In this document: positions 1-59,435 of the stretch, in pieces
Numbering within the stretch: position 1 is the first letter of the stretch
Layout: the number at the start of each line of letters is the position of its first letter
Assembly (NCBI GenBank): GCA_022641835.1
Contig: CP048719.1
Coordinates: 929,547 to 993,546, forward strand
Length of the DNA: 64,000 nt
DNA from: Petasospora fabianii
Taxonomy: Eukaryota > Ascomycota > Saccharomycetes > Phaffomycetales > Wickerhamomycetaceae
Direction of reading: 5' to 3'
Translations under genes and position numbers: made by a program
The notes under the pieces: generated by a model
Told to the model about the DNA's origin: nothing
Databases searched by the model: none
Seen by the model: only the letters and a program-made list of their open reading frames with translations

Positions 1-2743
1 ATTACACTATAACAGCATTGAATTATACTTATCCCCCTGGCATTGAGGTGCCTTTGGGGTGTTGAAAGGTCTTGATGATGCGGATGATGGAGGTTCGAGT
101 CATGTGGCGCTGGCTACTCTGCGACTGGGCTCTTACCAATATCATTTAGCCCATCTCGATCTAGATACAGATTCTACTGGCTCATGCAACGAGTGTTGGT
201 CAATGGATGCTTCAGTTTGGTCTACATGTACTTCGACTATGTCGACCCATGTGCATCGCGTGGTTTTGTGCTTGTCACTGCCAGTTGCCGTTGCTGAAGA
301 GCTAACCATGCCTTTATTCCATTCCATTCTTTCTTGGTCAGCCTCGGAGCATTATATGAGTCCAGTTTGATCACCTCTTTATATAGTTCTTGTCACACTG
401 CTCGGCACGGCTTGGAGATGGAGGACACTTCCCATTGATGTTTCACTACTTGACCTCTTCGGAGAGGCCGTGCTTTCCTGCAAACATTGTGGTTATGTTC
501 AGTTGTCTAGTCAGTCAGGTTGAGAGTGGTGTCTAACCATGTGTCTACACATGTGAACTTGCATTTTAGGAGTGTTGCGGTACTCCTATCTATAGGTCGA
601 GGGGAAGGGCTTAACTGCTCTTCATTCACTGCTTTCAACTACTGACACAAGACGCTGAACTAACGATCCCCTTTCCCCCTCTCCGAGCTTATGGGTCAAC
701 GGACACTGTGGTCCTCCAGTGCTATGTCTGATGATATACTGGTTTAACACATGTTTACGTGTGTGTCCTTGCATGGTATGACTTTGGCGTATCTATAAGT
801 CAAGGCAGGTGAGCTAACTGCCTCCATTCTAGTATCTCGTATGGACAAAGCACTGTAGATATGGGCCCTGACAGGGCTCTACAGACCAAGGTGACTGTTG
901 AATGTTCATGTGTCGACTCAGTTAAGTTGCTGGATGTGACGTCTACTCATGTGTCTTCACATGTGTCCTCGCTTGTCGAGGCTGATGAGCTAATTGCCTT
1001 CATTCATTACTTCCGCACACTGACAAGGTACTGAACACCCATGTTATACAGTCATACATTCAGCTGTCAGTTGACAGCTGCTCAGAGAGGTGGATTGGTC
1101 TCAGGGGAATCGTCCACATGTGACTTATACCATTTGTAGTTGGAGTTGAAGGATGCCCAGCCAAAAAGAGCTGCGAGCAGGGAGGAGTCCGTTGCCTTAT
1201 ATCACACCCAGGCGTGTCAATTGTTATATGTCTAGGGTGCCCTAAGGGCCAGTGCTTCTTCTGGGTCAGTGTTTGCATGGAGGTCGGTGTTATACCTCTT
1301 AGTTGAAGGACTCCGTACACCTCCCGCTGGCCCCATCTAACGAGGGGGAAGCCAGTGTGGCCTCGCACATGACGGTGGACTAGACCTACCACGACAGTCA
1401 TCGGGGTGTGAGATTCCTTCTTGGGACAGTGACATGGGGCTCGTGTGCACCTCATTAGTAGGCTCCAGATTCCCTGTGCCTGGCAACCCGAACGGGGAAG
1501 TCGGCAAACCCTAGGTGGTGTCCCTCGCAGACAGGTGGAGAAATCCTGGAGGGTCATCCCAGGATGTCGGACACTTCTCCCCAGGTAAAGACTACGGAGA
1601 TGGTCGTCAGAGTGCCACCTAGGATGGAAGAGGATGGAATTGGTGGTCTCTGGACACGACTATCCCGAATAGTCCCTGGCAGTGGGATAAGCCTTACGCT
1701 GACCCAAAAGTAGATCCGCGGCCCCTGGGAAGAGGTACTAACGTTGAACATAGACAGGGTGGACAGAGTGATGGATTATACCCGGTGGTGTTGTTCTTCC
1801 CCAGGTGGGGATACTCAGGTGGCCATGAATCGTGGTCATAGGCAGTGAGGTGATGTCTCTCCATATTGAGGCATCGGACAAATTCACCGGGGCCCAACAC
1901 TCTGCACACAACCTGTAATGTCAGCGTACAGGCCACCATTAAAGCAAGAGGCCCTTCCTTGCTATATTAATGGTCCCAGTGGGGTCAAAAATGTTGGGTA
2001 ATCATGGGAGAGCGGGGGCATGTCCGATTTTTCGTAGGTATAGGGTCAGGGCTCGCTATGTTGTAGGAAGGCGCTGGAGAGACAGGCAAGGCTTCTATGC
2101 GTCAATGAAGCACACGAGGGTGTTTATGTGCTAGTTAGTAATGCTATGAAGTCCTTTTTGTAGCTGTATTTACTGCGCTGATTGAGTTATTGCCAAAAGA
2201 AGCCAGTTGAGGTAGTGTAGGTATGCGCGCCAGGGCCAGATACTAGAGCCTATCTGAAATAATTGTCTATAACGTGCCTTCAGAAGGGTCAATAAAACAT
2301 CATTACTGTTATTGGAGTGATACCAAATGAAATAAGCTCGTTTAGAATGACTATACTGGGATCCAGCGCTAGAGTTGAAGCGTTGTTGTAGCTCGACGCG
2401 TTACTAGGTCAAAAGAATAAACCTATTGTTTTGCATGTGCTGACACCATTTCTGGCTAAATTACAGAAAGGACCATCCATAATGCTAGAAGTGAGCCAGC
2501 TGATCATACTGCAAGCAAGTGAGCGAGGTATGGAGGCGATTCCATTGTGTATGATCCTGTTATAGATCTTGAAAATTTGCCAGATTCTCTGTTCAAGACG
2601 TCACATACTAAGGACGATCATATACGATGGCAGTAGTATTATAAAGGCGTACAAGCTACTAGTACAGTGCATGTACACCCTCTCTACCCTCTATGGGCTC
2701 TCAAAGGCTCTAATTCTCGCTCGTCGTTGTATATGATCGTAAA
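1..2743. repeat. Copy A of a large hairpin-rich non-coding repeat
   Basis: This stretch aligns along its length with 12667-15208. It is a direct repeat, and the left end may be cut by the window edge. Three zones are seen. Positions about 50-1060 hold short modules, each with an inverted repeat near ACATGTG, a second hairpin, and a GCTAACTGCC-type motif followed by TTCATTC. Positions about 1060-2060 are more GC-rich and nearly identical to copy B except for homopolymer lengths. Positions about 2060-2743 are clearly more diverged. Open frames exist on the minus strand (for example 1060-1557) but homopolymer differences break them in copy B and no protein domain is visible. No transposase, integrase, reverse transcriptase, LTR or target-site duplication was recognised. 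It may be a non-coding repeat family, a source of structured RNA, or a decayed element. Confidence 0.85.
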
Positions 2744-3295
2744 CAATACCAAGAGCAAAGTTGGTAGGATTAGCGCAAATCAGCCTAGAAGCGGTACCAT
2801 AATTATCAGTCACCAGCTTCTCTAGTAGCTAGTATGCTATATCGAATGAAAGCCCTAAGCCAGGGCACCGTTATGCTGCTCTCGACCGGCTTTAACACTT
2901 AGTATCTAAGGTGTATGATGATGTTTAAAGTTCAGTTTTATTTCTCAGTAATTTATGCACATTTCGCGGAAATTTACCTCGTATCTTATTAGTGCATAAA
3001 TATGCATACTAGTTATGGCCATATGCATTAACGTGCATAGCACTGCCGATTAATACTTAAATTCTCTTATCCCGTCTTGTAGTCACCAATCTCATTGTTT
3101 TCTATGCGATGCTTGAAGATTTGCAGCACCATGAAGGCTGTGCTAGAGGTTCTTAGATCTATAACTCAGTCTGCGACATAGAGACATATCTATACGTTGT
3201 TCGCCACGAGATCGGTAAGTTCAATCGTTTAGGTAATAGGGTAAACAGCACATATCATTAAGCGTTTCCAAGTATAACTATATAACCTAACATCT
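2744..3295. other. AT-rich spacer between repeat copy A and SEC6
   Basis: No gene is seen. Positions 2950-3045 carry several TGCAT/ATGCA words (GTGCATAAATATGCATAC and neighbours) and TTTCGCGGAAA. A similar word mix (TTCGCGAATATTT, TTGCATAAACTTATGCAC) lies to the right of copy B at about 15438-15505, so a weakly conserved tail of the repeat may extend here. Confidence 0.4.
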
Positions 3296-5644
3296 TCATA
3301 GATAATTCTTCTTGATCTTGGAATTGAGGCTGAATCTCCCCATAAACGAAGGCTCAAGATTGTACTGATTTTCATCGATAAACTTCTTCTGAACCTCCTT
3401 AGCCCTTGGAATGATCATCTTAGCATCAGATGAATCGATATCTCTGCGTGCCTTGAGTACCAAAGAGAGGAATTCTGGTTTGATGTCAGGGAAGTTGGCC
3501 ACAGTCGATTGCCAATGGACAAGGATTTGATCAAGATCAGGTTCAGTGGACAAATCCATAAAGTTCTCAACAATCTTAAACTTAGATTCAATGATGTTTT
3601 GGTTTATGAATTGAACAAACAGCTTGTAGAACACTTCAAAGTCTCTCTTGACACAAGTGAGCAGCTTATCTGTTGTCTTTGGGAATTTGACGTCGTTGTT
3701 CAAATTATTCAAGTAGCGAAGAATACATTCTTCGATAATGTCCTCTGATAAGATCTCAAACAAATAACTGTTCATCGACATCTTCAATTCACCAAGATAC
3801 TCTCTTAGGGTATCAGAGATTTGTTGAGAGTAATTGGCAGAAGTCCAGTCCTTAGTAAAGATCTTATCCATGACAACTTTCAAATCGTCAAAGATGATCA
3901 CAATCAAACCATCACAACATTGCTTAGCCAAATTGGCAAAGCCATCAATGGTACTTTCAAGATCTGTATGGATCATAGAGGCATACTTCTTACTCACCAT
4001 TCCACCGTACTTATTCGAAATGGCCTCTGTGTAATCAGCACCTCTCATCTGATCGTTCGCCAAAGCTGTCAAATATTCAATCAATCCAGCAGGAACAGGT
4101 GTAATCTCCTCTTCTTCAGTCTCTTGTTTCTTCTTCTTCGAATCAACGTTGTTGTAAACAAGCCATTTCTGAACTTCACTCTTGACCAAGTCACCCCATG
4201 TTTGTTGTCTCTTAATTAGAAGTTTACCAAATTCAGAAATAACACCAGCCAAGATCTTACCTTGACCGGATCCAGCAGCAGTTTCACACTGTTGCGTAAA
4301 CATTTGAAATACAATTTTGGTTCCTTCCAATGCCAACAGCCCTTCAGAGTCAGCATCTGGTGCTTGGATTCTCGTCTTAAACACCTCATGCTCTGTGCTT
4401 TCCAAATTTCCAACCCATTCTTTCATCTTCATCACAATCAAGTTCAGATAATCTGTTAACAATTGTTCTTTCTCCGACTCACCAATTACGGTCTTGACAT
4501 CTGCCTTCTTGAGGTTGAAGTCAGTTCTCATAATTTCTTGGAATTGGTTATCAAAGTCCAAGATATCCAAGATGATGAGTGTCTCTGGTTCAGATTCAAT
4601 GAGTCTCACAATAAGTGTATGCAACTCGTTATAGTAAATGTCGTAATAGACTTTGAATATATCCCATTTTGGAGGGACGAGTCCCGTCAGCACTTGCTGC
4701 ACAGCAGCCAAATCATGAAAGACCCAACTCAATTCATTCAAGATTGCAAAGATGTCACCTTGATCCTCAAAAGTGGCCCAGCAGTTCTTGAAGATCTCCC
4801 TGACACTGTCAGTGATCTTTTCGAGGAAGAAATGCTTGTAGTGTCTTGGCTTAGTACGTCCCTGGAGTGTGCCATTGACAATTTGTTCAAAGAGCGATAC
4901 ACTACCTTTTTTCTCCTTGTTCTTACCTTCAATGACTTTTTTCAAAGCCTCAACCATCGTATCTTGCTTTTCTTCAAACTCAATGACCTTAGCAAGTCTA
5001 ACAACTAGACTAAAGTTTTCCTCCTTTACGGACTCGACGATACCCTCAATGATGTTTCCCAACATCCGATCAAACTTCTTGATGACGCCATCAGTCTTCG
5101 AGGTTAATCGTTTCACTGTGAATTTGGAATCATCACTACTCTTCTCTGCCAATTCTAATATCCGATCCTGGAAATCTCTTAGTGCGTTTAACTTGAAATG
5201 GATCGGTAGAAGTCCCGGCACTTCCGAGTCTGGTCCAATAGATTCATACTGCTCTTCTTCAATCATGCGATCCACTTCTTGTAAGCGGGCATTGAAACTT
5301 CCAACATCTTCTGCAATTCGTGAACTCTGATCAAAGATCTCATGGACGTGTGTAATGTTATTGATAAGCTCAAACCTACTGATGGAACCAAATGATTCAG
5401 TAGCGATGGAACTCACAGCGCTTAGATTGTCCCTAAGCGAGCGTACATCTTCCTGACACAGCGAAAGATGATCCATGTCTCGAAGAAGGTGATCCAGCTG
5501 TGTCTGTGCCAATGACTTGAGCTTCACATCGATGGCGGACTTCTCTGTCTGAAGCTGAGTCCTGAGTGTATTGATCTTGTCGAGATCCTCCTCGGTCTTG
5601 AGCAACTGCCCAATGTTACGTAGCGCGGCTTCACGTGTAGTCAT
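3296..5644 (-). CDS. SEC6: Exocyst complex subunit Sec6
   Basis: The 782-residue protein starts at the ATG at 5644 and is close in length to S. cerevisiae Sec6 (about 805 residues). The sequence is highly helical: an N-terminal coiled coil (roughly residues 1-120) is followed by the extended Sec6 helical-bundle domain to the C terminus, with no membrane segment. Sec6 is a subunit of the octameric exocyst, which tethers secretory vesicles to the plasma membrane at growth sites, where Sec6 binds the SNARE Sec9. A short lysine/glutamate-rich segment (KKKKQETEEEE, near residue 505) looks like a surface loop. It lies 361 bp downstream of NOG1 on the same strand. Identification is by overall family resemblance; no catalytic motif is expected. 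Confidence 0.9.
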   Translation of the reverse strand: MTTREAALRNIGQLLKTEEDLDKINTLRTQLQTEKSAIDVKLKSLAQTQLDHLLRDMDHLSLCQEDVRSLRDNLSAVSSIATESFGSISRFELINNITHVHEIFDQSSRIAEDVGSFNARLQEVDRMIEEEQYESIGPDSEVPGLLPIHFKLNALRDFQDRILELAEKSSDDSKFTVKRLTSKTDGVIKKFDRMLGNIIEGIVESVKEENFSLVVRLAKVIEFEEKQDTMVEALKKVIEGKNKEKKGSVSLFEQIVNGTLQGRTKPRHYKHFFLEKITDSVREIFKNCWATFEDQGDIFAILNELSWVFHDLAAVQQVLTGLVPPKWDIFKVYYDIYYNELHTLIVRLIESEPETLIILDILDFDNQFQEIMRTDFNLKKADVKTVIGESEKEQLLTDYLNLIVMKMKEWVGNLESTEHEVFKTRIQAPDADSEGLLALEGTKIVFQMFTQQCETAAGSGQGKILAGVISEFGKLLIKRQQTWGDLVKSEVQKWLVYNNVDSKKKKQETEEEEITPVPAGLIEYLTALANDQMRGADYTEAISNKYGGMVSKKYASMIHTDLESTIDGFANLAKQCCDGLIVIIFDDLKVVMDKIFTKDWTSANYSQQISDTLREYLGELKMSMNSYLFEILSEDIIEECILRYLNNLNNDVKFPKTTDKLLTCVKRDFEVFYKLFVQFINQNIIESKFKIVENFMDLSTEPDLDQILVHWQSTVANFPDIKPEFLSLVLKARRDIDSSDAKMIIPRAKEVQKKFIDENQYNLEPSFMGRFSLNSKIKKNYL

Positions 5645-6005
5645 ATGTATATCTTTCCTCTTTCCTTTACCTGCGTCCTTGTCTCCGTCTATCCACTGTT
5701 CAAGTTAACCGCCGTTAAAGTCAAAGGTGATGTTGATGTTTATGTTTATGAGATTAAGCGCCCATTCGCGAAAACGATCCGAAGCTCTACAACTTCATTA
5801 TACAGAAACCATAGTATTAACCCGGAAAGCACAATTAAATTGGAAACTAGTGTACACACAAGAAGAAATCATAGGTCATGAAACGGAGATGTGAAATGTG
5901 GGAAAAGAACAGAAAAAAATAGTAAAGAGAACACGTCATGATGAGGGGAAATGCAAATGCAGAGTAGATGGGATTGAAAAGACAACAACACATCATATAC
6001 CAAGA

Positions 6006-7919
6006 TCAACGGAAGTCAGTCTTACCGTTACCACGCTTACCACTGAACAAGTGCTTTGGCAAGGAGGCTGTAGAGTGACGATCACCCTCACCTTGTCTAG
6101 CCTGTCTGTTTCTCTCACGTCTCTGAACCTTGGCGAGTCTCTCAGCCTTAGATCTCAAAGAGCCATCAGAAACACCATCGTTCAAACGATCAGTCTTGTA
6201 AGCTGGTTGTCTCTTACCGTGACCAGTAGACATCTCTTCAAACACAACATCGGCACCAGTGTCCTCGTATCTCTGGGAGAGTTTGGCCTGCTTCTTGGCC
6301 TGGAGAGCAGAAGTGTTGTGGCCAAGAGATTCCAAGTGGTTTTCCATCTCGGAGAAGGACTTGGTCATCTTGGAACGTGGCATAGTACCACCATTCTTCA
6401 AAGCCTTTCTGTTTCTAGAAGCATTGATCATCTTTTGTTGCTTCTCTCTGATCCACTGAGCCTTCTCATGGATGTCCTCAGCTTCCTCGTCCTCAATCTC
6501 AGAGTCAGAGTCGTAGAATCCCTCAGCTTCCAATCTCTCTTCTTCCTCCTCCAAAGCCTGCAACTTAGCAGCAATGTCAGCATCCAAGAAGTCATAAACG
6601 TTCTTACCTTCAAGCAATTCTGGCATCTTGTCATTCTTCCATTCGTCATCCTCCAAGATGTACTTATCGTGTAAGTTGATGTTGAAAACACCTGCACCAC
6701 CATTCTCAGCTTCAATGTCACGAGCCAATCTTCTTCTGTTTGGATCCATCTTATCATACTTCTCAAGGGATTTAACACCTTCTGGAATGTAAGCTTCTCT
6801 CTTAATGTCATCTCTTGGAGCTGGCTTAGCAACATGAATCTTGTTCAAAACGTTGTTAACACGAGCGGAACCCTTAAGCTTTTGTTCAATTCTAGAGGCA
6901 AGCAATTTTTCACAAGCTTTGTTTCTAACATTCATAACGTTATCCTCCTCATGACAAGAAGCCTCCATGATCTCAACACCTGGTGTCTTAGTCAAAGTCT
7001 TTAACAACTCCTGACGTTCTGGATCCAAATCCTCTGGCTTGAGAATATCAGTCTTGTTTATCACAACAAGAACTGACTTGTTAGCGAACAATGGCTTAAT
7101 AGAGTGGAAAAGCTTAACCTGAGCCTCGATTGAGAAACCACACTGCTCGGAGATATCCATAAAGTAAAGTACTGTGGAACGCAAATGAGCAATAGCATAG
7201 ATGGATTGCATCTCAATGTTGTTCATCTCTTCAGTTGGTCTATCCAAGATACCTGGAGTATCAATGGCTTGGAATCTCAAATATTTATAGTCAAAATGAC
7301 CAACATAGAGAGACTTGGTGGTGAAGGCATATGGTTGCACTTCAACATCAGCCTTGGTGATACAACGAAGGAAAGAAGATTTACCAACGTTTGGGTAACC
7401 ACAGATCAACAAAGTTCTGGTGTTTGGATCAATAGATGGCAAACGACCCAAATGTTGTCTAACCTGCTCCAAATAAGCCAATGGGTCTTTAAGCTTCTTA
7501 ATAATGGTAGCCATACGACCAAGAGCAGCTCTCTTCAACTGCTTACATTGGAAAAGAGATTGACCAAACTTGAGCAATCTGACATAGTCACGAGAAACCT
7601 GCTCGATAAGAGACTTAGCTCTAGAAACGGCAGCGAGAGAAACCTTGTAATGATTCTTCTCATAAAGAGTATCCATAAGATCTCTATGGAATGGATGAAC
7701 ATCATCAATCTTTGGGAATCCGGAAATGATATCGTTAAACTTCTCTTCAAATCCTTCAGCAGTAAATTTGACCTTTCTCATATAAAAGGCTCTGATTCTC
7801 TGAATCTTAAAGCCCGGTCTGATCACAGTAGGTGTCTTTCTCTGTGTTCTGTTAAGAACAATGTCCAAGAGGTCATTGCCGTTAGGCACCGTTGGAATGT
7901 CCTTCCAAGTCAACTGCAT
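6006..7919 (-). CDS. NOG1: Nucleolar GTPase Nog1, 60S ribosome biogenesis
   Basis: The 637-residue protein starts at the ATG at 7919. An N-terminal helical region (about residues 1-165) leads into an Obg-type GTPase domain with G1 GYPNVGKS (about 174-181), G3 DTPG (about 220-223) and G4 NKTD (about 287-290). The C-terminal third is charged, with acidic stretches and a basic end ([16 protein letters not shown]). Nog1 binds pre-60S particles in nucleolus and cytoplasm, inserts its C-terminal tail into the nascent polypeptide exit tunnel, and is needed for 60S maturation. Length matches the yeast family (about 647 residues). It diverges from the HSP60-like gene across a 288-bp promoter. All diagnostic GTPase motifs are intact. 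Confidence 0.96.
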
Positions 7920-8207
7920 CTCTAGTGGCGTGGAATCAACTTCTAAGTAAAGCCCCCCGCTATGCGATGAGCAGCTCTTCTCCTTATTAAAATTTTTTTG
8001 TATGGCACCTGCACGAAAAGAAATAAAAAAAAAAAAAACTATCTCGCTTATGTAAGTGCTGACTACAGCAGCTCGACTCTAAATTACCCGGCTCACAATT
8101 CGGCCCCGGCCGAAGATCAATGAAGCTCATAGAACTCTTTTATAGATCTTGAGACCCAGCTCATCTCTTGTTGATATCTCACGCCCCATCGACAATATTC
8201 ATTGACA
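7920..8207. promoter_or_regulatory. Shared promoter of NOG1 and the HSP60-like gene
   Basis: This 288-bp divergent intergenic region contains a poly-A tract (about 8026-8038) that could exclude nucleosomes. A TTTTATAG box at about 8138-8145, some 65 bp before the chaperonin ATG, may be its TATA element. No clear three-unit heat-shock element was identified by eye. Confidence 0.4.
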
Positions 8208-9869
8208 ATGCTGAGAGGTCTTAAGCCACAAAGACAGTTCACACGTGGAATCAAGACCATTCATAAGGAGCTCAAGTTTGGAAACGAGGCGAGACTAGCT
8301 GTGTTACGAGGAGCTACTATTCTTCATGATGCCGTTGCCGTTTCGTTAGGACCAAAAGGTCGTAATGCATTAATGGAGCAGAAATACAATGCACCAAGAA
8401 TCACCAAAGATGGTGTTTCGATAGCTGAAGAGATTGTCGTTGCTGATAAATTTGAGAATATGGGTGCTCAATTGTTCAAAGATATCACACAGAAGGCTAA
8501 TGCAGAGTCTGGAGACGGTACAACGAGTAGTACTGTGTTGGCTCATGCAATCCTTTCAGATGCTATCAAGAAGGTCAGTACTGGATCAGATGCTAACTCT
8601 ATCAGAAAAGGTGTTCAGGCTGGTGTTCAGAGAGTTGTGGATTATCTTGAATCTCAAAAGAAGACCATCACAGGTGGTGAGGAACTTAAACAAATCGCTG
8701 CCATCTCGTGTAACGGTGATGCTCATCTCGGTGATCTCATTGCCAAGGCCGTGGAAGCTGTTGGTTTAGAAGGAATCATCACCATTGAAAAGGGAAACAC
8801 CGTCGAAGACAAACTTGAAGTCAAGAAAGGTTTCAGATTCAATGAAGGTTTCATCGATGCCAAATTTGGTGATCTTAGGAACCCAAAGAAGAAAATTGAA
8901 CTTGAAAACCCATTAATCCTACTCCATAAGGGAGACATCAAACAAGCTCAACACATTCTTCCAATTCTTTCACATGCCCAAAGGGAAAAAAGACCTGTCT
9001 TGGTCATTTGTGAGAATCTTGGTGGTGACGCACTCGCCATCTCTATCCTTAACAAGATCAGAGGCCAAGTCAACATCGTTGCCGTTCGTGCCCCAGGTTT
9101 CGGTGATGCCAGAGCCGACTACTTCTCGGATTTAGAAGCTGTCACTGGTGCAACACTCACAGATCCAAATGCCGGTACCATTGCAAGCACGGCTACGAAG
9201 CACTTGTTCGGATCGGCATCATCTGTATCAATCTCTTCAACTGAGACTGTTATCGTTGGTGGTAATGGTCCACAGCAAGCTGTTGAGCTTCGTGTTGAGG
9301 AAATCAGGGCAAGACTAGAAAATGATAAGACTTTAGGGTTGGGTGATAAGGATCAAATGAAGGAACGTCTTGCCAAATTGACAAGTGGTGCTGCTGTTGT
9401 TCAAGTTGGTGGTGCTTCTCAGATGGAAGTAAAGGAGAAAAAAGATAGACTTGATGATGCTTTGAACTCGACTTATTCTGCCTTGAAGAACGGTATTGTT
9501 CCAGGTGGTGGTGTTGCATTGCTCAAGTCCAGCGTGGCCCTTGAAGGTGCCGAGACTGATCTTAACTTTGATGAAAAGCTCGGTTTAGACATTGTTAAGA
9601 AGTCACTATCGGCTCCATTCGATAGAATCTTGGCTAATTCTGGCTTGACAGGTGCTGATTATAAACGCAAGCTTGATGGTTCCTTCAGCACTGGTGTTGA
9701 TGCAACCACTGGTGAGGTTGTTGACATGTATGACGCTGGTGTCATTGACCCTTTGAACACTGTCAAGTCTGCCTTGACAAATGCTGCTGGTGTCACAAGT
9801 TTGTTAGCTACAACTGAAGTTGCCATTACAAACGTTCTTGGTAAGATTGAAGGTTTTGATGGAAGATAA
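8208..9869 (+). CDS. Divergent mitochondrial HSP60-like chaperonin
   Basis: The first ATG (8208) gives 553 residues; the frame opens earlier but only from TTG. A basic, acid-free N terminus (about residues 1-19) suits a mitochondrial presequence. Group I chaperonin core motifs are present: LGPKGRN (about 47-53), TKDGV (67-71), GDGTTSS (102-108), RGQVNIVAVRAPGFGD, and PGGGVALL. Aspartates matching GroEL D52, D87 and D398 are kept, so ATP hydrolysis looks possible. The apical segment that reads GYLSPYF in GroEL (GFISPYF in yeast Hsp60) is GFIDAKF here (214-220), and there is no C-terminal GGM-rich tail; the protein ends GFDGR. Family Hsp60 folds imported matrix proteins with Hsp10. This may be a specialised paralogue, with a canonical HSP60 elsewhere, or an unusually diverged sole copy. 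Confidence 0.88.
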   Translation: MLRGLKPQRQFTRGIKTIHKELKFGNEARLAVLRGATILHDAVAVSLGPKGRNALMEQKYNAPRITKDGVSIAEEIVVADKFENMGAQLFKDITQKANAESGDGTTSSTVLAHAILSDAIKKVSTGSDANSIRKGVQAGVQRVVDYLESQKKTITGGEELKQIAAISCNGDAHLGDLIAKAVEAVGLEGIITIEKGNTVEDKLEVKKGFRFNEGFIDAKFGDLRNPKKKIELENPLILLHKGDIKQAQHILPILSHAQREKRPVLVICENLGGDALAISILNKIRGQVNIVAVRAPGFGDARADYFSDLEAVTGATLTDPNAGTIASTATKHLFGSASSVSISSTETVIVGGNGPQQAVELRVEEIRARLENDKTLGLGDKDQMKERLAKLTSGAAVVQVGGASQMEVKEKKDRLDDALNSTYSALKNGIVPGGGVALLKSSVALEGAETDLNFDEKLGLDIVKKSLSAPFDRILANSGLTGADYKRKLDGSFSTGVDATTGEVVDMYDAGVIDPLNTVKSALTNAAGVTSLLATTEVAITNVLGKIEGFDGR

Positions 9870-10123
9870 GTCATTGGTGGAACTTGACTCCTGTACATAT
9901 GCATAATCAATCCCGCTTCCATCGAGATCTAAATCTCTTTGCTCATATCCTTTTTATTTTTCTGGTAATACTAAAACAAATGTATATAGAATCAATAATG
10001 CAGCAATGGACTAAACGTCCACCCATGCTGCTTTTGTATCTCCCTAAATTGGTATTTTATAATCAACTCGTCCATAGATGTGATCCTGCACATCCTTTTT
10101 TTTTGAGGCTTTCAAAAACATCA

Positions 10124-11435
10124 TCAAGATATCTTCAAACTCCCAATATCAACCGCAACACTTGTTCTCCCCAAGAATTCCTGATCCTCATCCATCTTAA
10201 ATTGTGTATCCTCCTCCTCGTCATCATCTTCTTCTCCTTCTTCAGCACCGACAGGTGGCCCTTCCCATACAACATTCTCCTTCAATTGTGCAAAAGACAC
10301 AGAGGGACGACTCATACTTGATCTTGAGCCACGTCTTTGTAGCTCTTGAGGAGTCAACAAGTCTGATAAACTCGAGGGGACAAAATCCTCAAACATTTCC
10401 TCCTCGTCATCATCGTCATCATCATCATCCATGATTGCAGATTCAAACGCAGATGAGTTTTGATAAGTCGGACGTACAACGGCAGAGTGTGACATACTGC
10501 GATAATAGAGACTCTTAGAGTCGTGTGGTATTGTTGACGTCGTAGAAGCTGCTCCTGCTGCTGTTGATGTTGTGCTGCTCCATATGGAAGGCGAGAAGGT
10601 GCCTGGCTGCTCACTGGTTGAGTATGTACGAGGGTTTGTTGGGGAAACGGAGGAAGATTCCATGAACCCTGACCCAGCTATTGGAAGAGGAAGAGATCCA
10701 GCATGGGAAGAGGAAGTAAGACGGGATGTTGTGAATCCAGATGGAGGTGTATCAGAGTTTGTTACTAAAGTGGCGTTGAATGAAGATGGGGGTGAAAGGA
10801 TAGGAACTGTAGGGGATTCTGCAAAGGACAATGTCCGCGTGGTAAAGAAGCCATTTTGAGCGGATCCAACACCATTATTGTTCAATATACGCATTGGCAT
10901 TGTTGAGGAGTGTAATGTAGTGGAATCAGTCTTGCCATTAGTGCCGTTAGTTTGAGCAAGTGGTTCATGAGCCTGTGAATGACCGTTACCGTTGGTGTTC
11001 GCATTAGTGTTATGGATAACTGATCCAGTGGCAACATTATGGTTCTGATACACTTGTGCCAATGTCTTTGGGTTCACTCTGCGCCCATCTGGCAAGATGT
11101 GGGCCAGTGCACATTTGGCTCCAAACTTACAATTGCCCTTCTGGAAGTACTTGCATGGGGCAGTTTCAGAGTTCGTATCAAGCTGATGAGAAAAAGGACA
11201 GGCATTTCCAGCTTGACAGGCTCCTTGCTTAAAGAACTTGCAGGGAACATGAGCGAGATCTGTGTACGATATTGTTAGTTCAACTTTCGCAGAGATATAG
11301 TACCACGGAGAGGGGGCGGAAAGAGGATACTTGAAAGAAGAGCCCAATTTACTCACTCTTGGAAGGTGGAGACTTGGAAACGTCACCTGATGACCTTTGG
11401 GACTTGGAGAATGAACTCCGAGTTTTGTTAGCCAT
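10124..11435 (-). CDS. LEE1-like protein with two CCCH zinc fingers (one intron)
   Basis: Spliced gene: exon 1 is 11357-11435 (ATG at 11435), the intron is 11260-11356 (97 bp, GTGAGT donor, AACTAAC branch site, ACACAG acceptor), and exon 2 is 10124-11259; the product is 404 residues. The exon junction gives MANKTRSSF...SKNLAHVPCKFF. Two tandem C-x7-C-x5-C-x3-H fingers lie near residues 33-75 (CKFFKQGACQAGNACPFSH and CKYFQKGNCKFGAKCALAH), followed by ILPDGR. The remainder is Ser/Thr/Asn-rich and disordered with acidic runs (DDDDDDDD, EEDDDEEE). The finger pair resembles S. cerevisiae Lee1, of unknown function; CCCH fingers usually bind RNA. The C-terminal segment SRPSVSFAQLKENVVWEG is Ser/hydrophobic and might be phosphorylated. 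Family is firm, orthology to LEE1 less so. Confidence 0.8.
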
Positions 11436-12239
11436 CTCTTTGCTGTGTTTATTGTTCGCCTGTGGCGACGAGGAATGCTTCTTTGGCTGTTTCAACGTTG
11501 GTGGGGCTTTGAACGTGGGGGGAAAAGTGGTCGGCCTGTGTTTCGATTAGAGCTGTAAGGCCAAAATTTTGAGTTGTAATAAGCTTTCGGTTATTGAATA
11601 ATTCTTTTATGAACGATCGAGGAGAATATTCTGGCTGTCGATTGTGGCAACCCTTTTTAAGCGTCTTATTCCTCATCCGTGGCCCGGGGGGCTGATAATA
11701 GATTTTGGGTTCCCTTCCCAAACGCGACTAGATAAGCAACACACCCAAACACCACCACCTTTTTTTGACTCATATCTAAGTCAGATTATGTAATCCACTG
11801 TTTAGTCAGATTACGTAATCCCATTTTGTATTTTTCTGGTTTCCAGGGAGATAACTTATTTTTGTGGTTAGAGCCACAGTGCTACAACCACTGACGCACG
11901 CCACACTTTGCTAGATGTTCTACTCTTTTGCCCGCATCGAGGACATTTAGTAGGGCTGTTAGTTCTAAATTTCTCTGTTAATGAGTCTTTATTGTACTAG
12001 GTGGCTTCAAAGCTATCTTGGTACCTAGGTATTTGGATTTGCAAAGTCAGAGTACCTGCATGTTGGTTGTCTTTGTGTTATTGTTATGCACTGCTATCCA
12101 TATATATGGACCCATACCATTTCTTCAAGTTTATACTACAAACCATATCACATCTTATCATTTGAATCCTGTAGGAGTGATGTTATTTCGGCCCATTACT
12201 GAGTCTGCTCAGATTGAGCCTGATCAACCCCACTCTTAA
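11436..12239. other. Gene-free stretch with duplicated TTAxGTAA palindromes
   Basis: No convincing gene is seen. Two near-identical blocks, AGTCAGATTATGTAATCC (about 11781-11798) and AGTCAGATTACGTAATCC (about 11804-11821), hold palindromic TTACGTAA-type cores of the kind bound by Yap/CREB-like bZIP proteins. They lie about 350-390 bp upstream of the LEE1-like start codon. A 73-codon frame at 12018-12239 has no recognisable features and abuts the repeat. Confidence 0.45.
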
Positions 12240-15208
12240 AACTTGTGGGTTGGGCACTGTGGTCCTCCGGTGCTGCGTCTGATGATATACTGGCTTAACA
12301 CATGTTTACATGTATGTCCTTGCATGATACATCCTCTAGATTACCTATAAGTCAAGGCAGGTGAGCTAACTGCCTCCATTCCAGTATCTCGTCTTGACGA
12401 AGCACTGCAGTTATGAGCCTTTATTGGCTTTCCGGACCATGGTGACTGCTGATTGTTCACGTATCGACCCAATTGATTTGCTGGATGTGATGTTAATCAT
12501 ATGTTTTCATATGTGTCCTCGCTTGACGAGGCTGATGAGCTGACTGCCTTCATTCATTACCTCGGCACACTGGCAAGATACTGGACATGCTGGCCCCTAA
12601 TCCCCTGATGAAACAGTTGTCATCTGGCAGCTGCTTAGAAGGTACCAACAAGCCTGATCAAGCCATATATGGTAATCTTGACTTGTTGAAAGGTCTTGAT
12701 GATGCCGATAAAAGAGGTTTGGGTCATGTGGCGCTGGCTACTCTGCGACTGGGCTCTTACCAATATCATTTAACTCATCTGGATCTAGATGCAGTCATGA
12801 TATTCCTTGGTCTGCTTCATTTAGATGGGTCCAGTGGTTGATCTGTCTCTCTTTGCTTTAGTATATCTATACTGTCACACTGCTCGGCACGGCTTGGAGA
12901 TGGAGGACACTTCCCATTGATGTTTTACTACTTGACCTCTTCGGAGAGGCCGTGCTTTCCTGCCAAAATTGTGGTTATGTTCAGTTGTCTAGTCAGTTGA
13001 ATTGGTACTGGTGTCTTACCACGTATTCATACGTGTGAACTTGCATTTTAGGAGTGTTGCGGTACTCCTATCTATAGGTCGAGGGGAAGGACTTAACTGC
13101 TCTTCATTCACTGCTTTCAACTACTGACATAAGACGCTGAACTAACGATCCCCTTTCCCCCTCTCCGAGCTTATGGGTCAATGGATACTGTGGTCCTCCA
13201 GTGCTATGTCTGATGAGATACTGGTTTAACACATGTTTACGTGTGTGTCCTTGCATGGTATGACTTTGGCGTATCTATAAGTTAAGGCAGGTGAGCTAAC
13301 TGCCTCCATTCTAGTATCTCGTATGGACAAAGCACTGTAGATATGGGCCCTGACAGGGCTCTACGGACCAAGGTGACTGTTGAATGTTCATGTGTCGACT
13401 CAGTTAAGTTGCTGGATGTGATGTCTACTCATGTGTCTTCACATGTGTCCTCGCTTGTCGAGGCTGATGAGCTAACTGCCTTCATTCATTACATCCGCAC
13501 TCTGACAAGGTACTGAACACCCATGTCATATCTTAAGCTGTCAGTTGACAGCTTCTGAGAAAGGTGGATTGGTCTCAGGGGAATCGTCCACATGTGACTT
13601 ATACCAGTTGTAGTTGGAGTTGAAGGATGCCCAGCCAAAGTAGAGCTGCGAGCAGGGAGGAGTCCGTTGCCTTATATCACACCCAGGCGTGTCAATTGTT
13701 ATATGTCTAGGGTGTTCTAAGGGTCAGAGCTTCTTCTGGGTCAGTGTTTGCATGGAGGTCGGTGTTATACCTCTTAGTTGAAGGACTCCGCACACCTCCC
13801 GCTGGCCCCATCTAACGAGGGGGAAGCCAGTGTGGCCTCGCACATGACGGTGGACTAGACCTACCACGACAGTCATCGGGGTGTGAGATTCCTTCTTGGG
13901 ACAGTGACATGGGGGCTCGTGTGCACCTCAATAGTAGGCTCCGGATTCCCCTGTGCCTGGCAACCCGAACGGGGGAAGTCGGCAAACCCTAGGTGGTGTC
14001 CCTCGCAGACAGGTGGAGAAATCCTGGAGGGTCATCCCAGGATGTCGGACACTTCTCCCCCCAGGTAAAGACTACGGAGATGGTCGTCAGAGTGCCACCT
14101 AGGATGGAAGAGGATGGAATTGGTGGTCTCTGGACACGACTATCCCGAATAGTCCCTGGCAGTGGGATAAGCCTTACGCTGACCCAAAAGTAGATCCGCG
14201 GCCCCTGGGAAGAGGTACTAACGTTGAACATAGACAGGGTGGACAGAGTGATGGATTATACCCCGGTGGTGTTGTTCTTCCCCCAGGTGGGGATACTCAG
14301 GTGGCCATGAATCGTGGTCATAGGCAGTGAGGTGATGTCTCTCCATATTGAGGCATCGGACAAATTCACCGGGGCCCAACACTCTGCACACAACCTGTAA
14401 TGTCAGCGTACAGGCCACCATTAAAGCAAGAGGCCCTTCCTTGCTATATTAATGGTCCCAGTGGGGTCAAAAATGTTGGGTAAACATGGGAGAGCGGGGG
14501 CATGTATGATTTTTCGTAGGTATAGGGTCAGGTCTCGCTATGTTGTAGGAAGGCGCTGCAGGCAGAACCTAGGCTCCTGCGCGTGAACAGAGCCCCTGAG
14601 ATTGTATAAGGGCTACGTAGTGAAACTATGAGGCGTTTCAGGTAGCTGCAAGTCTTGCGCTGGTTGAGTTATTGTGAAAAGGAGCCAAGTGAGGTAGTGT
14701 AGGTATGCGGCATGGACCATACTTGCAACTATCTTTGATAATCGTCCGTAAAGAGACTTTACAAGAATGATTTCAGCCACATAGCAGATATCTAAGTATT
14801 GAACTGAGGTATTTCAAACGATTCTACAGGAATAGAAGGCTTGAGGTAAGGCTTTGTCGTAGCTGAACGCGTTACTAGGTCAGAACTTCAAGTCCATTCT
14901 TTTGCTTGTCTTGACACAATCGATGAAAAGCAAAGCGCATACCATCCTCTGTGGTAGATATGAGACAGCTGACTATAATACAAGTAGGTGAGCGTGGTAT
15001 GGGGTCGATATTATCGTGTATGATCCAGTTATAGATCTTAAAAACTTGCCGATATCCTCTGCTCAAGACGTCAGACACTAAGGACGATCACACACGATGG
15101 AACCACTACTAAAAATCCGCACAAGCTACTGGGACAGTGCATGTGCACACTCTCCACCCTATGTCGGCTTTCAAAGGCTCTAATCCTCGTTTGTCGTTGT
15201 ATATGATC
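12240..15208. repeat. Copy B of the large hairpin-rich repeat, with an extra module
   Basis: From about 12667 onward this copy matches copy A in the same orientation. It carries extra sequence at its left end: 12240-12640 is a diverged version of its own internal 13180-13560 (and of 690-1085 in copy A), so the element contains internally duplicated modules of about 400 bp. The central 13560-14540 part is nearly identical to 1085-2060, and most differences are one extra G or C in homopolymer runs. After about 14560 the match to copy A drops sharply yet stays collinear to GTCGTTGTATATGATC at 15192-15207. Several hairpins are retained with paired base changes (see findings). No ORF is conserved intact between copies. 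Confidence 0.85.
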
Positions 15209-27117: not shown

Positions 27118-28356
27118 TTACAAACCACCTCCATAAATACCTTCACTAGCAAAGATCTTCTTAATATGAGGGACGGAATAACCCTTGTGTAAAGCTAATT
27201 GCAACAACAAACGACATTTTTGTGGGTTTAAGTAACCACCAGCGATAGCACCTTCTAATTGTTTACCACCATCAACTTTTGGTAAATTTGCTGAAGTGAT
27301 ACAACCATCTTGAGATCTCTTTGAATAGACAACTGGGATTTGGAATTTACTCCAAATATATTTGAGAACTTCATTTGTCTCTTCACTGAGTGATCCTGCA
27401 CCAGAAGTGGCAAGGACTATAGCCTTTGCATTAACTTGTTCAATGGCCAATTCGATCAATTTTGGATTGAATCCTTGATGGTTATAGAGAATGATGACTT
27501 CTGGTAATTCATAACGTCTCTTAACACCAACTGGATCACTTGAGAATTGTAATTTGCCAGTGAGCTTTGTAGAGTCAATATCAATGTGTACATTACATGG
27601 ACGAGATTTTGGATAGAAGTAGTTAACGTTTCCATAAACGAATTGACCAAGGTAACCTTGTCCGACAGATTTGAATGTATCGAGTGTATTAGCATTAGAT
27701 TTTGTGATGTAGAAACCTGAACCGATGGAATCATTGAGTACAACTAAGACACCACGTCCAATAGATTCATCAGATGCAGCGACTGCAACAGCTTGGTAAA
27801 GGTTGAAAGTACCATCTGCACTGATAGAAGAGGAAGGACGCATACTTCCTGTCATGACGATAACAATATCTGGATAATTGATTGTAAGATCAAGGAAGAA
27901 AGCTGTCTCTTCGAGGGAATCAGTTCCGTGTGTGATGACAAATCTCTTGATACCGTCACATTCATATGCTCTCTTAATCTCACGATGAACAAGGAGCAAG
28001 TGGGTGGAGTTGAGTTCCTTAGAGTCGAGATTAACAATCTGTTGGAACTTCAAGTGTGCAATCTCAGAGAGTCCTGGCACTGAAAGGATAAGGTCTTCAA
28101 TGGTGAGGTCAACATCGTAACCACATGTCTGAAGATTAGACTCTGTCTTAGCAGCGATGGTACCACCAGTACCGAGGACTTTGACAACTGGGAGACTGTT
28201 ATTGTGTGAGTCAACATCAATCTCATGTGTCTGTGTGTGAGTAGTGATGGAGACGTTATGTGTCATGTGGTCAGAAGTGGAAACCACTGGTAGCAAAGTT
28301 GTAGTCATGAGATCTTCCACCGTATCGGTGTCCTTAACAGAGTCGATCTTGTCCAT
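27118..28356 (-). CDS. ASP1: L-asparaginase, no signal peptide
   Basis: The first ATG in frame is at 28356 (MDKIDSVKDTDTVEDL), giving 412 residues; upstream codons are open only from TTG. Both catalytic signatures of bacterial-type-II-fold asparaginases are present: GTGGTIA (first catalytic Thr, about residues 63-69) and THGTDSLEETAFF (second Thr and Asp). ILYNHQGFNP and SGAGS follow as expected. The enzyme hydrolyses asparagine to aspartate and ammonia. The first 55 residues are polar, Thr- and His-rich and lack a hydrophobic segment, so a cytosolic location is likely. It diverges from a GATA factor; a GATAAG site (minus strand, 28536-28541) lies 180 bp upstream, and a 14-codon upstream ORF precedes the start. 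A secreted paralogue lies at 37313-38416. Confidence 0.93.
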   Translation of the reverse strand: MDKIDSVKDTDTVEDLMTTTLLPVVSTSDHMTHNVSITTHTQTHEIDVDSHNNSLPVVKVLGTGGTIAAKTESNLQTCGYDVDLTIEDLILSVPGLSEIAHLKFQQIVNLDSKELNSTHLLLVHREIKRAYECDGIKRFVITHGTDSLEETAFFLDLTINYPDIVIVMTGSMRPSSSISADGTFNLYQAVAVAASDESIGRGVLVVLNDSIGSGFYITKSNANTLDTFKSVGQGYLGQFVYGNVNYFYPKSRPCNVHIDIDSTKLTGKLQFSSDPVGVKRRYELPEVIILYNHQGFNPKLIELAIEQVNAKAIVLATSGAGSLSEETNEVLKYIWSKFQIPVVYSKRSQDGCITSANLPKVDGGKQLEGAIAGGYLNPQKCRLLLQLALHKGYSVPHIKKIFASEGIYGGGL

Positions 28357-28404
28357 AGCTGAGAGATCTGTATGTGTTTTTTCTGGTAAAACCAAAGGGA
28401 AGAG

Positions 28405-36502: not shown

Positions 36503-37312
36503 TTTATCGTATAGTTATCTCTAAATAAGAACTACATATAAAGTACTAATAGTCTCCGCTTTTTTCTAGCGGAGGAAAAAGAGAGGGCGCGAGTAGGGTA
36601 ACCTTAATACTCTATAGCTAATATATACACATAAATTAATCTCCGCTGTTTAGATTATGTAGATGTGTATTGAATAGATATTGTCTATGGATGAGCATGT
36701 CTAAGTATCACTCAGGTGATAAACACCTGATGGATACCTCGATAGATGGAGGAGAATACAACTCCGCTAATCCAACCAATTACCGATACTTAACGTCTTA
36801 TACGACTGTTATGAAATGACTCTTGGCAAATAGGGAGTCATATGATCAAAATGAACCAATTAGTTCTCAATTAGATGTATCGGAATACTACATGCATATG
36901 CACATTCAATAAGAGCAAATGAAATGCATATGATATGATTTGCGTTAGAGATAAGAGATGCCTTAAGGTGTTTAGATAGAAGGATGGTGGACGCGAGCTT
37001 AGTTGGTAGTTTGAGCTAATGAAGATGTTACAATAAGTGGGTATAGAGAGCTAAAATGTTAATATATATCTTTGTATTACGTCTTATTTACTCCCTATAT
37101 GTCTTTTTCCCGAGTTTTTTGGACTATTTAATGATACTAATGATTATATATGATCCGAGGGTCTCAGGGGTAACAAGTGCGGCAAGATCTCCGAACTCGA
37201 GTCATTATCGATTGGCGCATTTGACTTGGAATAGGTATAAATTGGACTTATTCCCTCTTTTTTTATCATTGAGATAATGTACATCTCAACTAAAGTCAAG
37301 CAAAGCAACAAA
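36503..37312. other. Spacer upstream of the secreted asparaginase
   Basis: No gene is seen. A hairpin CTCCGC-TTTTTTCTA-GCGGAG lies at about 36555-36575 near the complex I gene start, and further CTCCGC words are at about 36643 and 36767. CGATAATG (minus-strand CATTATCG) is at about 37204. Confidence 0.35.
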
Positions 37313-38416
37313 ATGAGACTCTCTAACTCAATTCTTACATCTGTTCTCATTACACTTGCAACTGCTCTACCACATAATCTTGATCTTCAATCAAGAGACT
37401 TGGAATCAGTTAATTCATCACTTCCAACAGTTAAGATCTTTGGTACTGGTGGTACAATTGCATCTAAGGGTGATACATCTGCCACTACTGCCGGATATAG
37501 TATTGGTCTTACCGTTGATGATTTGATTGATGCTATTCCATCACTTGCTGAAAAGGCTAATTTAGATTATCTTCAAATCTCTAATGTTGGTTCCAATTCT
37601 TTAAATTATACCCATTTGATCCCATTACATCATAATATCTCTGAAACTCTTGCATCTGATGATTATGATGGTGCTGTTGTTACACATGGAACTGATACTA
37701 TGGAAGAAACTGCATTCTTCCTTGATATCACTTTAAAGTCCGAGAAACCAACTATCTTAGTCGGTGCTATGAGACCATCTACTGCTACAAGTGCAGATGG
37801 ACCAATGAATCTTTACCAGGCAGTTTCTATTGCCGGTTCAGAAGAAGCCAAGGGTCGTGGTACAATGATTACTCTTAATGATCGTATTGCTTCAGGTTTC
37901 TACACAACAAAGATTAATGCTAATACACTTGATACTTTTAAGGCACAGGAACAAGGATACCTTGGATTGTTTATCAATGATGATATTGAATTTTATTATC
38001 CACCTGTCAGACCAAATGGATGGCACTACTTTGATATCTCAAATGTAACTGATGCATCTGAGATCCCAGAAGTTGTTATCTTATATTCATACCAAGGGCT
38101 AAACCCTGAGCTTGTGGTTCAGGCAGTTGAAAAACTTGGTGCTAAGGGTATTGTTCTTGCCGGATCTGGAGCTGGTTCATGGACAAACACTGGAGATATC
38201 TTTAATAAGGAGATGTTTGACAAATATGGTATTCCAATTGTTGCATCTCATAGAACAGCTGATGGATCTGTTCCATTAGGAGATTCTGATGAATTTACTA
38301 TCTCTTCTGGGTTCCTTAATCCACAAAAGGCTAGAATCTTGTTACAAATGTGTTTGTACTCTGGTTATTCTAATGACCAGATCCGTACAGTGTTTAGTGG
38401 AGTTTATGGTGGTTAA
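37313..38416 (+). CDS. Secreted L-asparaginase (Asp3-like)
   Basis: An upstream in-frame ATG at 37277 exists, but the ATG at 37313 starts a typical signal peptide ([20 protein letters not shown]) and gives 367 residues; S. cerevisiae Asp3 has 362. Catalytic signatures are GTGGTIASK (about residues 43-51) and [14 protein letters not shown]. Potential N-glycosylation sites include NSSL, NYTH, NISE and NVTD, which suits a cell-wall or periplasmic enzyme. It releases ammonia from extracellular asparagine when nitrogen is poor. It is a diverged paralogue of the signal-less enzyme at 27118-28356, in the opposite orientation and about 9 kb away, with the GATA factor in between. A strong hairpin and a minisatellite follow the stop codon directly. 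Confidence 0.93.
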
Positions 38417-38417
38417 A

Positions 38418-38443
38418 AGTATTACATCGATAGATGTAATACT
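38418..38443 (+). terminator. 3' hairpin directly after the asparaginase stop
   Basis: AGTATTACATC and GATGTAATACT form a perfect 11-bp stem with loop GATA, beginning 2 nt after the TAA. It may shape the mRNA 3' end; fungal termination does not depend on such stems, so the role is inferred. Confidence 0.6.
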
Positions 38444-38677
38444 ATACTAATAAACTAATACACTAATAAACTAATACACTAATAAACTAATACACTAATA
38501 AACTAATACACTAATAAACTAATACACTAATACTAATACACTAATACTAATAAACTAATACTAATACACTAATACTAATACACTAATACTAATAAACTAA
38601 TACTAATACACTAATACTAATACACTAATACTAATAAACTAATACTAATAAACTAATATCTAATAAACTAATAATAA
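38444..38677. repeat. ACTAATA(A/C) minisatellite
   Basis: About 230 bp consist of 8-bp words ACTAATAA/ACTAATAC and 6-bp words ACTAAT. The first third alternates 8+8 (16-bp period); the rest is 6+8 combinations (14- and 28-bp periods). Every unit contains TACTAAT or ACTAATA, close to the splicing branch-site sequence. Confidence 0.95.
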
Positions 38678-59362: not shown

Positions 59363-59435
59363 GGACTGATGGTCTAGTGGTTACGACGTCGCCTTTACAC
59401 GGCGAAGGTCGCGGGTTCGAACCCCGTTCGGTTCA
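59363..59435 (+). tRNA. tRNA-Val (anticodon UAC)
   Basis: The 73-nt gene folds as a full cloverleaf: acceptor GGACTGA with TCGGTTC (two G-U pairs), D arm GTC/GAC with loop TAGTGGTTAC, anticodon stem TCGCC/GGCGA with loop TTTACAC, so positions 34-36 are TAC; T arm GCGGG-TTCGAAC-CCCGT, and discriminator A. There is no intron and CCA is not encoded. Internal promoters are visible: TGGTCTAGTGG (A box) and GGTTCGAACCC (B box). It resembles the yeast tRNA-Val(UAC) sequence. It stands alone between SES1 and ENP2. Confidence 0.97.

Follow-up and report, generated by a model that had tools for sequence, protein, structure and literature searches.

Within the 64,000-nucleotide stretch of budding-yeast DNA analysed here (the window), a large repeat occurs in copies that differ at paired positions of short hairpins, and this raises the question of whether selection maintains a structure and, if so, in what kind of molecule. 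Its sequence points most strongly to one of two things: a large structured non-coding RNA that is multicopy and so far undescribed, or a selfish element based on RNA.

Distribution and architecture of the repeat

Searching the 12.3-Mb, 16-contig genome revealed this dispersed, intergenic, non-coding repeat at 14 loci, in full at 13 of them and in decayed form at one (L039). The 14 places lie on seven of the 16 contigs, with one to four on each, and nine contigs have no copy. A 5′ array of modules is followed by a core of about 0.9 kb and by a 3′ tail that exists in two versions. The array is made of homologous three-hairpin modules, 62 over the 14 loci, all in the orientation of the element; 43 of the 62 were outside the training set of the sequence model R1, which was built from M2 sequences only and by which the M1 and M3 modules were then found. 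In the core, mean pairwise identity among the 13 full copies reaches 0.969; the modules lie at 0.86-0.90 and most of the tail at 74-81%. The 0.67 obtained for domain M0 is no measure of divergence, since some of the copies entering it have other sequence at that place. L039 was excluded from these 13-copy identity figures and from the reading-frame and indel analysis of the core, and kept in the 5′-region alignment, the tree-null tests, the module counts and folds and the comparison of palindromes. Because the homologous module and tail flanks are far more diverged than the core, the copies must be old; no recent insertion was seen. The 5′ start point differs among copies and the ends of the element are not sharp. 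Flanking host genes are unrelated between loci, the sole common flanking ORF being shared by L028 and L033, and a search for tRNA-linked insertion found no tRNA in any of the 14 loci. Plasmid, phage and viral collections, where yeast DNA is not expected, held no match to the repeat.

The window holds two copies, both on the plus strand. Copy 1 begins with domain M0 (395-481), a basal stem with a TTCG-loop hairpin, followed by module M1 (530-634; match to the M2-only model, E 0.00026), which comprises hairpins a, b and c, contains hairpin 1 at 538-553 and has a predicted closing stem extending to about 500-655. Module M2 (740-836) is a training sequence of R1, and module M3 (940-1012; E 7.7e-6) contains hairpin 2 at 948-963. 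Then come a 20-base palindrome, hairpin 3 (1061-1080; an exact match, compared over 14 copies), the nearly invariant core (1141-2045; 13 full copies and one partial copy genome-wide) and a version-A tail (2046-3060, end approximate), whose AT-rich end at about 2950-3060 has many TGCA words and one TTTCGCG word. Copy 2 repeats this order with M0 at 12877-12963, M1 at 13012-13116 (L027:2059-2163; E 6.1e-5) containing CACGTA-TTCA-TACGTG at 13020-13035, M2 at 13222-13318 (L027:2269-2365; R1 training sequence), M3 at 13422-13493 (L027:2469-2540; E 5.6e-7) containing the hairpin at 13430-13445, an exactly matching palindrome at 13535-13554 and a core at 13615-14527 that is 98% identical to that of copy 1. 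Upstream of copy 2 lie an extra M2 module (12291-12388, L027:1338-1435; R1 training sequence) and an extra M3 module (12490-12561, L027:1537-1608; E 6.7e-8), both also on the plus strand; the latter contains CATATG-TTTT-CATATG at 12498-12513 and is followed by a palindrome-like stretch at 12614-12633, both exact matches.

Pairing and covariation across copies

The initial annotation had taken paired changes in these three hairpins to imply selection on structure, and the eight stretches that it quoted are all present letter for letter. Perfect hairpins with a 6-bp stem and a 4-nt loop number 43 in the window, a figure inflated by the repeat copies, against 17.7 expected from composition; a lone hairpin of these dimensions is no rarity, and the weight lies in homologous placement and in differences that fall on paired bases. 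Among the 18 copies that could be aligned at hairpin 1, the two double-changed pairs are of the CACGTA type in 10 and of the CATGTG type in 8, and both pairs are intact in every copy. These two alleles form a single block: as its four sites are fully linked, the change is one haplotype swap and not several independent compensations. The proposed R-scape check over many copies was approximated by an all-pairs test with a tree-based null, in which this block was the sole signal below E 0.05 (E = 0.01), and the non-paired combinations 540-548 and 543-551 scored equally. The CATATG form of hairpin 2 exists, but only in the module at 12498-12513, one of 19 copies over which the hairpin is nearly invariant. 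The outer pair of hairpin 3 does vary between C-G, A-T and G-T, although L029, L035 and L038 have mismatches within the stem; among the 14 copies folded, the most diverged, L039, retains the stem with other letters.

Three hairpins from two copies and a partial third are therefore insufficient on their own, since one of them is a single linked block and since template switching or gene conversion can yield such pairs; the case for structural selection draws its support from the wider data. A structure folded from the copy L026 alone has a Watson-Crick fraction of 0.786 (0.722 +/- 0.012 in the tree null) and 67 double-change cells (43.4 +/- 7.1) in a test that includes L026 itself, and none of 300 simulations reaches either value. 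When L026 and L027 were omitted, the local plus-strand helices still gave 28 double-change cells against 15.7 +/- 4.2 (P 0.0075), the tree-based P values being only guides because the copies recombine. For long-range helices of the plus strand, those with arms over 30 nt apart, the paired fraction was above the null (P 0.005), as was the number of pairs with at least two Watson-Crick types (21 against 14.9 +/- 2.4, P 0.015), while double-change cells showed no significant excess (30 against 23.7 +/- 4.6, P 0.11); in all, long-range pairing exceeded the null by three of four measures. Relative to the tree-based null, pairing predicted from a single copy persists in the remaining ones, with clear results in local hairpins and weaker ones in long-range helices. 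The minus-strand structure likewise passes the local tests.

Covariation across modules was strong, with 86 double-change cells against 24.4 in shuffles, in an alignment that was itself fitted to the structure. No covariation was found in M2 alone, two of five measures failed to exceed shuffles in M1, and the core is too invariant for covariation testing. Departures of the G-U and A-C kinds did not differ from background (Fisher P 0.31), and the directions of substitution at paired sites showed no bias (152 against 157).

Folding, coding capacity and known families

Relative to shuffled sequence, both large segments fold better on the plus strand than on the minus strand, with z-scores of -5.06 and -3.40, respectively, for 500-1150 and of -5.31 and -1.02 for 1141-2090 (20 shuffles each). 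Twelve M0 domains were found in the 14 loci, with loops of TTCG (8), TACG (3) and TTTG (1), those of two copies being read from the printed sequence, and with loop stems of CTC/GAG (6), CCC/GGG (4) and the mismatched CCC/GAG (2). By the rule of the UNCG tetraloop family, this variation resembles the kind expected of UNCG-like RNA tetraloops. Single-sequence folding chose the loop hairpin in three of the 12 domains and formed the basal stem in nine.

The core has no conserved reading frame: 23 of its 28 indel runs are not multiples of three, its longest open stretch ranges from 82 to 173 codons over 13 copies, and a 165-aa ORF had no Pfam match. At the gathering threshold, Rfam gave one match in the whole window, a tRNA at 59363-59435. 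With E <= 5, the sole match in window 1-3200 was to TarB (526-597; E 0.35; 22.8 bits, where the threshold is 80), and with E <= 0.5, five of the 14 loci gave only sR11 in L034:82-145, below threshold and outside the element. The large bacterial RNAs OLE, ROOL and GOLLD are families included in Rfam, and no homology to them was found in these searches of the window, of window 1-3200 and of the five loci. CTGATGA-like words suggested a C/D-box snoRNA, a candidate rejected as these Rfam searches gave no such match in the element. A polymerase III gene was likewise rejected; the B-box-like word near 93-102 is altered, as seen by eye, in the second copy near 12717. Nrd1/Nab3 words, poly-A words and T runs showed no clear bias between strands, and a scan for sigma-70-type promoters, the wrong type for yeast, found 7 sites against 4.5 +/- 2.1.

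In the three copies examined for hallmarks of mobile elements, long direct terminal repeats of the kind expected of an LTR retroelement, LARD or TRIM were absent. Window 1-3250 had none, and the repeats seen in L034 and L038 were short ones of the modules, a simple repeat and chance-like 20-30 nt pairs. With regard to the terminal inverted repeats of a DNA transposon or MITE, L038 alone showed a candidate, one inverted pair of 20 nt with 80% identity whose arms lie 2.4 kb from each other.

A model for the repeat and its alternatives

We give an even chance to the reading in which the copies form a gene family and encode, on the plus strand, a long structured non-coding RNA of at least about 1.6 kb. 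The suggestion of the initial annotation that the repeat may encode such an RNA gains from the pairing beyond the tree null, from the shared module plan and from plus-strand folding, and leaves room for a role as DNA. Also consistent with an RNA are the 13 full copies between unrelated host genes, the expandable 5′ array, pairing that is kept while letters change, the variation of the M0 loops and a core that hardly differs between copies and has no conserved frame. We propose that the copies would be transcribed from the plus strand, that the modules could act as repeated docking or assembly domains for protein binding or RNA-RNA contact, that the core may hold a sequence-specific function, and that gene conversion together with purifying selection would hold the cores alike.

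An alternative without structural selection, which we regard as unlikely, is that the dispersed repeat is old, that its short inverted repeats are perfected by template switching during replication (quasi-palindrome correction) and that the resulting alleles spread by gene conversion. According to one study, multibase compensatory changes may arise through template switching (PMC8794818), and another describes, in yeast lacking RNase H2, mutations that extend the identity between quasi-palindrome arms (PMC3820800). The full linkage of hairpin 1 fits this process, as do the sister copies L026/L027, L030/L031 and L035/L036, which differ in alleles as conversion would give, and the double-change cells, whose excess is clear for local hairpins but falls short of significance for long-range helices. 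Long-range pairing nevertheless exceeds the null by the other measures, and template switching leaves the shared hairpin plan of three diverged modules and the invariant core unexplained. Dispersal between unrelated genes, the lack of own proteins, 5′ ends that begin at differing points and the structured, RNA-like modules would all suit a non-autonomous selfish element moving via RNA, whose hairpin modules would let a partner encoded at another genomic locus package or reverse-transcribe it; the absence of long direct terminal repeats in three copies and the age of the copies speak against such an element, which we think quite unlikely. Improbable, finally, is a DNA element made of inverted-repeat protein sites or cruciforms, or serving as an origin, boundary or pairing site. 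The arms of hairpin a are CANNTG-like words in most modules, the 3′ end carries the AT-rich array of TGCA words, and wobble in local hairpins has no strand preference (24 G-U and 23 A-C states), all of which favor DNA; yet arms that change letters and stay paired are not expected of a sequence-reading protein, and the plus strand folds better in both large segments. The uneven spread over contigs also shows that the repeat does not occur once per chromosome, and on this distribution a centromere was rejected.

To our knowledge, yeasts have yielded few descriptions of large structured RNAs other than those of the ribosome, spliceosome, telomerase and comparable complexes. Published accounts of OLE, ROOL and GOLLD describe long non-coding bacterial RNAs whose predicted secondary structure is elaborate and which contain highly conserved stretches (PMC12286853, PMC9723947). 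The repeat, as a putative RNA, shares these features and differs from the three in its place on yeast chromosomes, its roughly 14 copies, its tandem homologous modules and its lack of a match in the Rfam searches above. It is possible, though doubtful, that it represents a eukaryotic counterpart, in kind and not by descent, of such large ornate RNAs. Multi-kilobase in length, this RNA would join an invariant core to an array of homologous multi-hairpin domains that can expand, and concerted evolution would maintain it at about 14 yeast loci. In a multicopy family whose modular 5′ array varies in length, the function of such RNAs would be approachable, since the small genome allows copies to be removed or exchanged, and the repeat offers a test case for compensatory changes made by selection as against template switching and gene conversion.

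Among dispersed repeats, large retrotransposon derivatives have a conserved structured internal domain; like them and TRIMs the repeat is dispersed and without its own proteins, and unlike them it lacks long terminal repeats, as judged from three copies. The major repeat sequence of Candida albicans, likewise scattered through a yeast genome and repetitive in its internal parts, is similar by description; we know of no structured modules in it. Of the seven CTG sites of Sec6, three align with leucine, and the host, once considered as a CTG-serine yeast, is therefore probably outside that clade, unlike the host of the Candida repeat.

Copies and anatomy of the repeat

The repeat occurs twice in the window, with an extra partial module block preceding copy 2, and all eight stretches quoted in the initial annotation were found in place within it. 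A genome search with 380-1160 of copy 1 returned at least 25 matches; the core (1141-2045) returned at least 15 in 14 places, 13 as full-length copies and one split in two. One locus, on contig C2 near 714 kb, is a decayed copy with a large core deletion and lower identity throughout; its remaining core is 78% identical to the other copies.

In copy 1 a small domain, M0 (395-481), comes first in order, followed by matches to three homologous three-hairpin modules, M1 (530-634), M2 (740-836) and M3 (940-1012), a 20-base palindrome (1061-1080), the core, a tail that exists in two versions over 2046-2750 (A in seven loci, B in six) and a final AT-rich stretch in which TGCA words recur (about 2950-3060), which lies at the same place in the other full copies. 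The AT-rich end of most full copies also carries a single TTTCGCG word; this resembles the sites of APSES-type transcription factors. Five loci (L027, which is copy 2, L029, L031, L033 and L035) have a further upstream module block, whose modules are about 80-84% alike; the upstream parts of six loci contain six additional M2-type modules. A degenerate extra module upstream of M0 (215-330) was seen by eye; the M2 model gave no match there.

Mean pairwise identity across 13 copies is 0.868 for M1, 0.865 for M2 and 0.904 for M3, and 0.74-0.81 within tail versions past the first 60 columns, against 0.969 for the core, which is therefore sharply set apart. The two tails are strongly diverged yet share motifs near their ends, and the adjoining core is 97% alike, an allele-like split.

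Tests of pairing and covariation

A covariance model built from 19 M2 sequences and run on the 14 loci (120,014 bases, E <= 0.2) found 62 modules, every one oriented as the element is: 25 of M2 type (the 19 training sequences included), 19 M3 and 18 M1. E was 0.91 or more for the three matches that ranked next. A sequence-only model found 61, and M3 scores rose from 18.5-26.1 bits to 27.5-40.7 bits with structure, the two models being calibrated differently. In an alignment of the 62 modules, which was fitted to the structure and has 59 distinct rows in three related groups, 88.5% of cells are paired versus 81.2% in shuffles, and double-change cells, in which both sides of a pair are altered, number 86 versus 24.4. 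A double change occurs at 10 pairs versus 6.9, a level that 7 of 500 shuffles reached; for further pair types there is no excess (146 of 500).

The hairpins of M1 are 98-99% paired, with double changes at two pairs of hairpin a (8 of 18 copies each) and in three and one copies in hairpin b; in its closing stem pairing drops to 86%, the outer half being broken in many places. M1 exceeded shuffles in three of five measures, with no excess in double-change pairs (6 vs 4.7) or further pair types, and M2 alone showed no covariation excess over shuffles. The loops of the 12 M0 domains found read TTCG (8), TACG (3) and TTTG (1), the kind of UNCG-like variation that an RNA tetraloop would show. Their stem is CTC/GAG in six, CCC/GGG in four and mismatched in two, and the hairpin was chosen by only 3 of 12 single-sequence folds.

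The initial annotation took paired changes in three hairpins as selection on structure. Our own implementation of an all-pairs covariation test (19 sequences, 574 columns, 200 tree simulations) gave E < 0.05 for four column pairs, drawn entirely from sites 540, 543, 548 and 551 of hairpin 1 (538-553); since only two of the four are base pairs, the signal is one linked block. PMC8794818 argues that multibase compensatory changes can arise by template switching, so hairpin 1 alone is no proof of selection. That the palindromes were perfected in this way, with gene conversion and without function, is an unlikely account of the repeat. The inference of selection fared better in structure-restricted tests, which exceed the tree null. 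The plus structure derived from locus L026 alone gave Watson-Crick pairing of 0.786 versus 0.722 +/- 0.012 and 67 double-change cells versus 43.4 +/- 7.1; the minus-strand structure gave 0.809 versus 0.740 and 51 versus 32.0 (300 simulations).

The copies recombine, sister copies carrying differing alleles, so that the simulation P values serve as guides only. In a retest without L026 and L027 (400 simulations, local and long-range helices apart), local plus helices had 28 double-change cells versus 15.7 +/- 4.2 (P 0.0075), with variable pairs not in excess (12 vs 9.9, P 0.23). Long-range plus helices exceeded simulation in variable pairs (21 vs 14.9 +/- 2.4, P 0.015) and paired fraction (P 0.005), and not significantly in double-change cells (30 vs 23.7 +/- 4.6, P 0.11). 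On the minus strand, double-change cells were in excess in local helices (27 vs 15.8, P 0.015) and not in long-range ones (15 vs 13.1, P 0.34).

Strand and nature of the element

Single-sequence folds gave z of -5.06 plus and -3.40 minus for 500-1150, and -5.31 and -1.02 for 1141-2090 (20 shuffles each). When the alignment of 13 copies was scanned in 18 windows, plus z was lowest at -5.52 (517-708), -5.10 (899-1083; minus -4.67) and -4.99 (1478-1674); several windows had values close to or above zero for plus and minus alike. The tails were unremarkable in most windows; one tail-A window, at -7.03 minus versus -3.39 plus, is at odds with a plus-only reading. Long-range plus helices have 36 G-U and 17 A-C states, local ones 24 and 23; overall the counts do not differ significantly from the background share of 0.547 (P 0.31), and substitution directions at paired sites are unbiased (152 vs 157). 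Folding energy favours the plus strand, and wobble counts show no significant strand preference.

The proposal of an undescribed structured non-coding RNA is partly upheld and is the best reading. For the repeat, no family of Rfam came up to its threshold in searches of the window, of its positions 1-3200 and of 5 of the 14 loci. We give about even chances to the repeat being a transcribed gene family of candidate multicopy long structured RNAs. A non-autonomous RNA-based selfish element is doubtful, three copies having no long direct terminal repeats, and a DNA element is more improbable still. The literature surveyed, in which subscription journals are poorly covered, showed no description of such an element, a weak sign of novelty.

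Coding potential and genomic setting

The core shows no conserved reading frame: of its 28 indel runs, 23 have lengths not divisible by three, and among 13 copies the longest open stretch ranges between 82 and 173 codons. Copy 1 is short of bases in six homopolymer runs (1435, 1471, 1493, 1578, 1780 and 1798) relative to most or all of the 12 other full copies, three losses being common to L033. Such gaps have the look of long-read homopolymer error, which may account for the 165-aa ORF of copy 1 (1060-1557, minus strand). That ORF, L028:1968-2495 and L026:2115-2627 are the three of 20 scanned ORFs in or beside the loci without a Pfam family at E <= 1e-5; the other 17, one of which (in L038) falls below Pfam's own cut-off, name unrelated enzymes and regulators. 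The 14 loci contain no tRNA genes. Two copies on contig C4 have common upstream DNA, a local segmental duplication, with a 175-aa ORF (L028:1968-2495 and L033:1260-1787, 95% identical; no Pfam match in the one scanned).

The window (C5:929547-993546; 42.8% G+C) belongs to a genome of 12,335,623 bases in 16 contigs and holds budding-yeast genes for Sec6, NOG1, a TCP-1/cpn60 protein and ribonucleotide reductase, the last with large chain 1 of entry 1zyz, presumably the S. cerevisiae protein, as best solved relative. Because three of seven Sec6 CTG codons stand opposite leucine in solved Sec6, CTG is probably read as leucine. ORFs 27118-28395 (minus) and 37277-38416 (plus) are, by sequence family, what we take to be putative asparaginases; directly after the second lies a tandem array (38437-38677) of 16.6 copies of a 14-base unit, consensus TAATACTAATACAC.
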